Positions 4,330 to 6,291 of a stretch of 45,148 nt of DNA are shown here, piece by piece; position 1 is the first letter of the stretch; the number at the start of each line of letters is the position of its first letter. Under the pieces are notes generated by a model. It was given only the letters and a program-made list of their open reading frames with translations, ran no database searches and had not been told where the DNA came from. A program made the translations under genes and the position numbers. Origin of the DNA: Acidilobaceae archaeon. Its GTDB lineage: Archaea; Thermoproteota; Thermoprotei_A; Sulfolobales; Acidilobaceae. The DNA lies in NCBI GenBank assembly GCA_027046245.1, contig JALTZJ010000050.1:1-45148 (forward strand), given 5' to 3'.

Positions 4330-4430
4330 GGGCGGCAATGAGTAGACGCTGGGTTGCCCGAGGGCCGGCTTGAACCCTAATAAGGGGTTCAAAGGCCCGA
4401 TGGAGACATCACGGACCGAACGAGCCGCCC
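4330..4430. ncRNA. Candidate structured RNA closed by GGGCGGC/GCCGCCC
   Basis: A 101-base segment closed by a perfect 7-bp stem (4330-4336 with 4424-4430). Inside are a perfect 8-bp hairpin TTGAACCC/GGGTTCAA with a 7-base loop (about 4370-4392), enclosed by GGGCC/GGCCC, and a smaller GATG/CATC hairpin at about 4399-4410. The layout is reminiscent of a multi-arm junction, but it is not a tRNA: no T-arm, D-arm or anticodon arm fits. The strand is uncertain. A minus-strand TATA at about 4463-4470 has the better spacing. It could be an independent sRNA or the leader of the 3885-4289 gene. I cannot match it to a known family. Confidence 0.4.
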
Positions 4431-4513
4431 ACGTCTATGCCTAAGCTTATCTATCATGAAGCTTTAAGGCCTGCTAGTAGATGGGGGCCTCATAAAGGCT
4501 GCACTTATTACTG

Positions 4514-4550
4514 GCTCTTCACAGGGCCCATATGATCCGGCCCTCCGAGC
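4514..4550 (-). ncRNA. Kink-turn-like hairpin, candidate L7Ae-bound sRNA
   Basis: Read on the minus strand, this segment folds as stem GCTC/GAGC, then an asymmetric loop GGA opposite TGTGAA, then stem GGGCC/GGCCC capped by a 10-base loop. The loop follows the kink-turn rule: a three-base bulge (TGT) followed by GA opposite a GA flanking the C-stem. Kink-turns of this kind bind L7Ae in archaeal H/ACA and C/D guide RNAs and RNase P RNA. Flanking sequence can extend the pairing (TGCA repeats and GGGGG/CCCCC further out), so the full RNA may span roughly 4485-4562. No ACA, C or D box is clear, so the class is open. Confidence 0.4.
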
Positions 4551-4609
4551 TTGCACCCCCCTTTCATCGACCCCCGTACTTAATTGGAGCAACACGATTT
4601 AATTGATCA

Positions 4610-5305
4610 TCACTCATTGAATGACTCTTCGCTTTCAAGCGCGGCGGCTTCAATCATACTCCGTATCTCGTAGACTATTCTGTCTGCTTCTCGTTTCTCA
4701 ACGTTTTGACCCCGCTCTACTAGGTCGCGTATCTTTTCACTAAGCGAATTCTCGAGATCCCCTTCTAAGTCAATAATGGTCTTGGGTATCTTGAGTGGTG
4801 TCGGCTCCGAGAGTGCTCCTCTTACAACGGCCTTTCCGTCGAGAGGAGTAACCAGCAATATGCCCACAGGCTTACCGTTCAAGGTGACCTCAAATACAAC
4901 ATCGCCTGTATCAGTCTCACCAAGCCTTCGTAGATCAACGTTCATCTGGGCCTCGATTAGATCAGCACGGTGCTCAACTACGAATGCTATGTGAGGCTTA
5001 ATCTCCTCCTCAGGAACGCGGCGCCAGGCCTCTATAGAGAGTGTGTCTAGCTTAAACGATATTGACCCGTTATCAACGTCGTACTCAACAGTTATCCTAA
5101 CAACATCGCCTTTATCAAGTCGCAGCTTATTAACGATTATCTCGTAGAGAAGCCTGTTTAGTTCTCCCGCGGCCCTAGCAACTTCCTGGTTACTAAGCTC
5201 GCCTGACTTAATGCGATCACGTAGCTGAGCGAAGAGCACGCGTCTAACTTTATCTGCGTAGCCACCCGCGATAACTAGGCCTGTGCGGAGCACGTTAGTC
5301 GCCAT
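4610..5305 (-). CDS. DUF2258-like conserved archaeal protein
   Basis: A 231-residue acidic protein that I associate, from memory of the family, with DUF2258, a crenarchaeal family of unknown function. The opening VLRTGLVIAGGYADKVRRVLFAQL is the most characteristic stretch. The rest is mixed alpha/beta, with two similar acidic beta segments and a Glu-rich tail. The reading frame continues upstream to 5362, but ATG 5305 is the better start: a strong GGAGGTG Shine-Dalgarno sits about 6 bases ahead of it and the added residues look non-homologous. A minus-strand AT-rich box (TTAATTTTA, about 5346-5354) could be its promoter. No catalytic motif is visible. It stands alone. Confidence 0.7.
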   Translation of the reverse strand: MATNVLRTGLVIAGGYADKVRRVLFAQLRDRIKSGELSNQEVARAAGELNRLLYEIIVNKLRLDKGDVVRITVEYDVDNGSISFKLDTLSIEAWRRVPEEEIKPHIAFVVEHRADLIEAQMNVDLRRLGETDTGDVVFEVTLNGKPVGILLVTPLDGKAVVRGALSEPTPLKIPKTIIDLEGDLENSLSEKIRDLVERGQNVEKREADRIVYEIRSMIEAAALESEESFNE

Positions 5306-5580
5306 GAAGCCGCACCTCCTCCACACTATTATTATTTGTATAGACGGTAAAATTAATTCCACACCTTGTGCTGTCTATGAAGCACACGTCTTACCATGGA
5401 GGGAAGTAACTTAAAGAGTGATTAAGGACAAGCACTGAACCCCCTTGATCAACTCTTTAACGAATATTTTAGTATATTATAAATGCTAGGCAGTAGTCAG
5501 AGCTCAATTATCAAATATACGGGCCCTATTCAATTAAAAATGGTGCAGAAAAGGATAGATATTGTACGTGGTGAGCTGGA

Positions 5581-5799
5581 TTGCCAGGCAAATCAATAAG
5601 CGTGTGGCTCCACGAATCGATTTATAATAGTGTAAGTGAAATATCGAGGGAGACGGGTTTAAACAGAAGTGCGGTCATTAATGCAATACTTTATAAGGCG
5701 CTAAGAGACCTGGGATTAAACTATGACGAGGAGCTGGACCGCGAATTCCGAGGCGCTTTAAACTCGATCGAATACTATGCTGCAGGTAAAAAGAAGTAA
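5581..5799 (+). CDS. Ribbon-helix-helix (CopG/Arc-type) DNA-binding protein
   Basis: A 72-residue protein with the ribbon-helix-helix pattern: a short basic beta strand (KSISVWLHESIY), helix A (residues 13-25) ending in GLNRS, and helix B (SAVINAILYKALRDLG). Such proteins dimerise and bind operators, often as autoregulators or antitoxins. The start is TTG at 5581, preceded by GGTGAG at a suitable distance. An AT-rich stretch at about 5505-5540 may carry its promoter. No toxin-like partner is adjacent. It lies about 115 bases from the 3' end of tRNA-Leu. RHH proteins are common in crenarchaeal mobile elements, so it may be a relic, but no attachment-site duplication was seen. Confidence 0.75.
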   Translation: MPGKSISVWLHESIYNSVSEISRETGLNRSAVINAILYKALRDLGLNYDEELDREFRGALNSIEYYAAGKKK

Positions 5800-5914
5800 G
5801 CTAGTAATTATACGCGATTATATTTTAGGATTAACTAGTTATGAGTATTTTGGTCTAAAGTAGACTATCGAGGCTGGTATCAATGTATATAGTAGAGTAG
5901 GATTAGGAAATAGG

Positions 5915-6002
5915 TGGTGCGGGGGGTGGGATTTGAACCCACGCAGGCCTACGCCATCGGGTCCTGAGCCCGACCCCTTTGGCCAGGCTCGGGCACCCCC
6001 GC
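5915..6002 (-). tRNA. tRNA-Leu, anticodon CAG, CCA encoded
   Basis: An 88-base type II tRNA read on the minus strand. The acceptor stem is GCGGGGG pairing with CCCCCGC, the discriminator is A, and CCA is encoded at 5915-5917. The D-arm region is CCCGAGCCTGG. The anticodon loop CTCAGGA gives anticodon CAG for Leu codon CUG. A long variable arm and the T-arm GTGGGTTCAAATCCCAC follow. No intron is present. A TATA box at 6031-6040 lies at the spacing expected for a start about 8 bases ahead of the mature 5' end. Confidence 0.97.
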
Positions 6003-6030
6003 ACCGTGTTACCTCGCAATAGCATGTGGG

Positions 6031-6040
6031 GATTATAAAT
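6031..6040 (-). promoter_or_regulatory. TATA box of tRNA-Leu
   Basis: The minus-strand sequence ATTTATAATC is centred about 34 bases from the mature tRNA 5' end, so transcription would begin near 6010 and leave a short leader. The assignment rests on spacing and TATA consensus only. Confidence 0.65.
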
Positions 6041-6103
6041 AGTGCGGGGCGTCTAACGGCCACAATCACCAGCTAGTAATAAACTTCCCTGTTAAATTAG
6101 GCT

Positions 6104-6117
6104 GAAAAGGTTTAAAG
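6104..6117 (+). promoter_or_regulatory. BRE/TATA promoter without a downstream gene
   Basis: GAAAAGG followed directly by TTTAAAG is a textbook archaeal BRE plus TATA pair. Transcription is predicted to start near 6139-6141. The next plus-strand protein gene is almost 2 kb away, whereas a 7-bp closed RNA stem begins at 6149, so the promoter most likely serves the candidate non-coding RNA. Confidence 0.55.
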
Positions 6118-6139
6118 TAGATTATATGAGGTGCTGCTA

Positions 6140-6252
6140 ACAAAGAATGTGGTCGAGCCCGGCGCTGAAGGGTCTGCGGCTCCAAGCAGACCCGGTGAAG
6201 AGCCGACCACCGCCGCTAGGAGGAGCCCCGCTACTATAACTAGGGGCTATGA
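6140..6252 (+). ncRNA. Candidate two-domain structured RNA with kink-turn-like loop
   Basis: Domain 1 is closed by the perfect 7-bp stem GTGGTCG/CGACCAC (6149-6155 with 6204-6210) and contains a 7-bp hairpin GGGTCTG/CAGACCC (6170-6176 with 6187-6193). Between them the bulged strand GGTGAAGAGC faces GCTGAA, close to a kink-turn. The decamer GTGAAGAGCC (6195-6204) also occurs in the 4514-4550 hairpin on the other strand. Domain 2 is a 6-bp hairpin AGCCCC/GGGGCT (6224-6229 with 6243-6248). A good BRE/TATA lies at the correct distance upstream. The 3' end is unknown and may run to the convergent MscS stop at 6292. H/ACA-like is one option, but no ACA box is clear. Confidence 0.5.
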
Positions 6253-6291
6253 CGTTGTCGTGGCGAGTCAGCCGGCATATGTAGCTAAGGT

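Follow-up and report, generated by a model that had tools for sequence, protein, structure and literature searches.

In box C/D RNAs, L7Ae binds kink-turns and recruits Nop5 and fibrillarin. Archaeal C/D sRNAs that are directed at tRNAs, such as those of Pyrobaculum, have one guide on the tRNA and another without a target, and in Pyrococcus such sRNAs serve wobble methylation of tRNA-Leu, tRNA-Met and tRNA-Trp (PMC7994747). A permuted C/D sRNA, sRNA24, was found as a circle in Nanoarchaeum equitans, where it is one gene beside a split gene; permuted genes are expected to be detectable only when they are recent (PMC3491384). Two further N. equitans sRNAs, sR15 and sR17, have guides for the two strands of one rRNA helix and have been proposed to act as RNA chaperones (PMC4644070). 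Here we describe a locus that probably encodes two separate C/D-type sRNAs: sRNA 1, with U34 of tRNA-Ala(UGC) as its predicted target, and a permuted sRNA 2, predicted to be directed at the flanks of the tRNA-Asn anticodon.

The window is the whole stretch of DNA that we analysed: 45,148 nt, positions 1-45,148 of contig JALTZJ010000050.1 (GCA_027046245.1, Acidilobaceae archaeon). The decamer GTGAAGAGCC occurs in it exactly twice, at 4522-4513 on the minus strand and at 6195-6204 on the plus strand. Only 0.13 copies are expected per window, and one of 100 shuffles contains two. The longer form CCC-N-GTGAAGAGCC also occurs twice, against 0.01 expected. The initial annotation had proposed that the two copies mark L7Ae-bound kink-turn RNAs that are independent of protein genes and form one undescribed family. 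The first part of this proposal holds, with L7Ae binding as a prediction. The two decamers are a genuine pair that chance would rarely produce, and neither hairpin overlaps a conserved protein gene. The second part does not hold, and we return to it below.

For comparison we used a sister contig of the same assembly (G000:C57, here C57; 11315 bases) as a close relative. Its gene order follows that of the window, its proteins are about 80% identical, and it probably comes from a co-binned second species of the same genus. Intergenic DNA has diverged in C57 except for three stretches, namely hairpin 1, hairpin 2 and an element X (sRNA 3). A small ribbon-helix-helix-like protein that adjoins tRNA-Leu (window 5581-5799, plus strand) has a diverged homologue in C57.

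Both decamer sites are kink-turns in the window, and both are kept in C57. The first copy fits the kink-turn rule, with the stem GGGCC/GGCCC, the bulge UGU and GA opposite GA; in C57 its stem has become GCCCC/GGGGC, a compensatory change. The second copy departs from the rule by one base: in the window an additional A (CUGAA) adjoins the stem. In C57 this kink-turn reads CUGA-GGGC and is fully canonical. The basal stem TGGTC:GACCA of the second copy is probably non-functional because it is not conserved in C57. We read each hairpin as the predicted D'/C' kink-turn of an sRNA of its own, of box C/D type, in which the D'/C' loop has grown into a stem (Table 1). What the two copies share is box C' (GUGAAGA), followed by three guide bases that agree by coincidence. 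An Rfam search of the window returned only tRNA-Leu above the gathering threshold and nothing at either sRNA up to E=5.

Table 1. Positions of the predicted sRNAs and their parts in the window
Feature	Position	Strand	Description
sRNA 3 (element X)	4331..4429	+	predicted box C/D sRNA beside hairpin 1, two guides for 23S rRNA
sRNA 1	4483..4576	-	predicted box C/D sRNA; terminal stem GGGGGUC/GGCCCCC; C57 homologue, canonical relatives
sRNA 1, box D	4490..4493	-	AUGA; adjoins terminal stem
sRNA 1, box C'	4516..4522	-	GUGAAGA; conserved core of the shared decamer
sRNA 1, enlarged D'/C' stem-loop	4524..4543	-	GGGCC...GGCCC; GCCCC...GGGGC in C57
sRNA 1, box D'	4544..4547	-	CGGA; CUGA or CCGA in relatives
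sRNA 1, guide	4548..4560	-	GGGGGUGCAAGCU; complementary to tRNA-Ala(UGC) G30-C40
sRNA 1, box C	4561..4567	-	AUGAAAG (consensus RUGAUGA); preceded by stem and 3-nt bulge; GUGAGCG in C57
sRNA 2, possible TATA box	6111..6116	+	TTTAAA, from sequence only; similar A/T elements upstream of the A. camini and A. pernix homologues
sRNA 2	6156..6254	+	predicted permuted box C/D-type RNA
sRNA 2, guide 1	6156..6166	+	AGCCCGGCGCU; complementary to tRNA-Asn A23-U33
sRNA 2, box D'	6165..6168	+	CUGA
sRNA 2, D'/C' hairpin	6170..6193	+	GGGUCUGC...GCAGACCC; sequence varied, pairing mostly kept in relatives
sRNA 2, box C'	6195..6201	+	GUGAAGA
sRNA 2, guide 2	6203..6212	+	CCGACCACCG; complementary to tRNA-Asn C41-G50
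sRNA 2, second kink-turn	6221..6254	+	box D AGGA, hairpin GCCCC...GGGGC, box C UAUGACG at 3' end

All four boxes of sRNA 1 (C, D', C' and D) are located in the window and form two kink-turns or k-loops with GA opposite GA; D', D and C are degenerate. Boxes C and D lie just outside the hairpin as first described, for which no clear C or D box had been seen. The most conserved stretch of sRNA 1 is its guide, directly 5' of D'; the second guide is long and unconserved. Guide and D' together give the pattern GGTGCAAGCTCNGA, which has 17 matches in 147 genomes versus 3 for the reversed control, and a few of the 17 look protein-coding. For hairpin 1, comparing the folding of the single sequence with shuffles is uninformative (z = -0.01).

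The relatives of sRNA 1 in other genera share its guide and are textbook C/D RNAs, a match that the initial annotation itself had named as evidence against its reading. In genome G006 the order is box C ATGATGA, guide, CTGA, ATGAAGA, TGGGTGCAAGCT, CTGA, and this relative has weak Rfam matches to C/D-box families (sR3, E=0.014; sR14, E=0.13). Canonical boxes are also found in the relative from G011. In G006 and G019 the guide belongs to a canonical C/D RNA that adjoins element X. By its anatomy, sRNA 1 is thus a predicted box C/D sRNA of the ordinary archaeal kind.

Two side observations concern the guide. One genome (G030; L151 and L157) carries guide and D' twice. In five genomes of one genus (L144-L148; G066, G009, G028, G035 and G021) the guide coincides with the opening codons of a reading frame (GASSEG), and sRNA and coding sequence may overlap there. 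Because the guide starts a reading frame in these five genomes, coding may explain part of its conservation in them.

The best tRNA for the sRNA 1 guide is tRNA-Ala(UGC), which it matches in the anticodon arm with no mismatch and one G-U pair. The fit is of moderate significance for the 11-nt guide (8 of 500 shuffles are as good) and is not significant for the full 14-nt guide of the window (77 of 500). The guide abuts D', and the fifth nucleotide from D' faces U34. tRNA-Ala(UGC) is therefore the likely target, judged by complementarity. sRNA 1 would act as a C/D sRNA with a single guide, the one at D', which would pair with the anticodon loop, and by the N+5 rule it should direct 2'-O-methylation at U34. 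It resembles the Pyrococcus wobble-methylation sRNAs in having boxes C, D', C' and D, one conserved guide at D' with N+5 on position 34, and another guide without a target (PMC7994747). Unlike them, it has tRNA-Ala(UGC) as its target, an enlarged D'/C' stem and degenerate D boxes.

Beside hairpin 1 lies sRNA 3, which was not part of the initial annotation. A covariance model built from three sequences of this element matches 30 of 147 related genomes. Its compact members are textbook box C/D RNAs (for example L100: ATGA, guide, CTGA, ATGATGA, guide, GTGA). The guides are complementary to the 23S rRNA of G002, which we take to be A. camini, at GGUCCGUGAA and AACCCGGCG, two sites 20 nt apart. 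The common guide form matches the GGUCCGUGAA site exactly and the window form has one mismatch at the end; at the AACCCGGCG site the guide pairs with one G-U. For the second guide the common form beats 300 of 300 shuffles and the window form all but 16, whereas the first guide alone is not distinct from shuffles in its pairing with 23S rRNA. In the members that we read, the spacing between the guides and boxes D and D' agrees with the N+5 rule. sRNA 3, which has no Rfam match, is thus a predicted ordinary box C/D sRNA. Its D'/C' loop is a stem in the window and in C57; hence enlarged D'/C' stems occur in this genus.

sRNA 2 is built differently. Its homologues share the layout guide 1 (AGCCCGGY), D', loop or hairpin, C', guide 2 (GCCGACCACCG), D, hairpin, C. 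The members that we read show the linear order D'-C'-D-C and not C-D'-C'-D. Upstream of guide 1, box C is absent in A. camini, A. pernix (G004, again an assumed identity), G013 and G031, and in the first two there is little space for it between the TATA-like element and guide 1. The sRNA 2 locus lies at G004:C1:1181091-1181177 in A. pernix and at G002:C1:1128029-1128113 in A. camini. We read sRNA 2 as a putative C/D-type RNA with permuted box order, a variant on a known kind. As in sRNA24, the gene has D before C, and the usual box order appears only if the RNA is read as a circle or over a gap (PMC3491384). Unlike sRNA24, sRNA 2 keeps its permutation in several genera, has hairpins at both D-C joints and has a single tRNA as its predicted target.

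The members of sRNA 2 come from several genera of one family (f1), and the core of guide 2 is nearly invariant among them. Several homologues adjoin the same MscS gene as in the window or the neighbour gene found at window 4610-5305. A model from ten members finds additional ones that had not been used to build it, for example in G068, G025, G005 and G017. Pairing in the hairpins of sRNA 2 is better within than between species; permutations were as good in 1 of 5000 cases for its hairpin 2 and in 60 of 5000 for its hairpin 1. The second kink-turn, with GA opposite GA, is present in all 11 tabulated members, 9 of which have G-C, A-U or U-A as the 3b-3n pair. The first kink-turn is found in most members, the exceptions being G061 and the C' box of A. 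camini.

A genome-wide pattern scan with variable gaps yielded one true member, in an Acidilobaceae MAG; the remaining matches are mostly due to chance, in G+C-rich bacteria. About half of the matches to GAGCCGACCACCG were rejected by context, as codons of ABC ATPases (DEPTTA) or of other genes. A match to hairpin 2 in G007 was rejected because it falls inside an apparent protein gene, and a later model match in G007 (E=5.7e-8) was left out. Separately, another family of the order contains a related RNA with two kink-turns (L282 in G144, L286 in G072). Its hairpins are kept, its guide 2 is altered (GCCGUCCACCU) and its guide 1 differs from that of sRNA 2.

On either side of its anticodon, tRNA-Asn(GUU) is complementary to one of the two guides of sRNA 2. 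For sRNA 1 and sRNA 2 alike, the tRNAs were taken from three genomes, and most guides were thus compared with the tRNAs of relatives. For 9 of the 11 members tested, tRNA-Asn ranks first of 101 tRNAs. Combined pairing beats 300 of 300 shuffles in three of five members and is weaker in the window (2 of 300 shuffles as good) and in A. pernix (10 of 300), counts that are somewhat optimistic, since the idea of tRNA-Asn came from scanning several guides against all tRNAs. Changes at two positions of guide 2 (in G005, and in G025 and G017) keep the pairing through G-U. The guides of G014 and G018 fit tRNA-Asn poorly, again as compared with the tRNAs of relatives. A simple antisense copy of the tRNA-Asn gene is excluded by the order of the two pairing sites.

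From these features, sRNA 2 most likely forms a C/D RNP that would open the tRNA-Asn anticodon arm and hold it, either for methylation or in a chaperone role. Both D-C joints would be closed by hairpins, the ends of the RNA would lie between box C and guide 1, and the guides would pair on either side of the anticodon loop. As in the rest of the class, L7Ae would bind each kink-turn of sRNA 1 and sRNA 2 and recruit Nop5 and fibrillarin. Like sR15 and sR17, sRNA 2 has guides that match the two strands of a single stem, here the 5' strand and a portion of the 3' strand (PMC4644070). The stem is that of a tRNA anticodon arm and not an rRNA helix.

We tentatively go one step further, to a proposal that is rather short of an even chance: sRNA 2 may found a conserved, permanently permuted C/D class that clamps both anticodon flanks of tRNA-Asn and serves as a tRNA-folding or modification chaperone and not as an N+5 guide. 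The distance from guide to box varies (by 2 nt at D' and about 5-12 nt at D). Hence no nucleotide is constantly at N+5, and methylation at one set N+5 position lacks support. One could still suppose that sRNA 2 guides N+5 methylation at tRNA-Asn nucleotides that depend on the lineage (G29 or C27, counted from D'). D' does overlap the end of guide 1 in the window, and it directly adjoins that guide in A. camini, A. pernix and G031. A site that wanders while the pairing stays fixed would be unusual, however, and D stands at a variable distance from guide 2, so that we consider this supposition unlikely, if worth keeping in mind.

Still less probable is that sRNA 2 is an H/ACA-like pseudouridine guide, with a kink-turn on a roughly 9-bp stem and with the conserved AGCC and ACCACC flanks as an open pocket. 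Such an RNA would resemble the H/ACA-like RNAs of Pyrobaculum: CGGYNC:GAGCCG can pair in most members, and the stem is close in length to the 8-11 given in PMC4652768. Yet the family shows no conserved ACA/ANA box at 14-16 nt beyond the upper stem on its 3' side, and a second kink-turn comes after. The one weak pocket match to 23S rRNA has a mismatch and is at about chance level, and the sites on tRNA-Asn have the wrong order and spacing for a pocket.

Both remaining readings are very improbable. The idea of one undescribed L7Ae-bound family draws on the rarity of the shared decamer, but sRNA 1 of C57 lacks the GCC that comes after GUGAAGA in the window (it reads GUGAGGA-GUAGC), and the two sRNAs differ in guides, targets, box order and relatives. 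Cis-acting kink-turns in the UTRs of neighbouring mRNAs, as in the L7Ae autoregulation element, have precedent in l7ae and nop5 mRNAs (PMC5539422) and would suit the place of hairpin 1 downstream of a same-strand gene, but hairpin 2 is opposite in strand to both its neighbours (tRNA-Leu and the MscS gene) and is preceded by a TATA-like element, and the relatives of hairpin 1 occur in other contexts, with guide anatomy.

The favoured reading, a C/D-type sRNA 1 and a permuted sRNA 2, bears on the class in several ways. sRNA 2 would put both guides on one tRNA, around the anticodon, and would do so from a permuted gene kept across several genera. It makes the idea of C/D chaperones directly testable on a small, well-defined RNA. 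Moreover, Rfam misses C/D sRNAs whose D'/C' stems are enlarged, whose boxes are degenerate or whose order is permuted.
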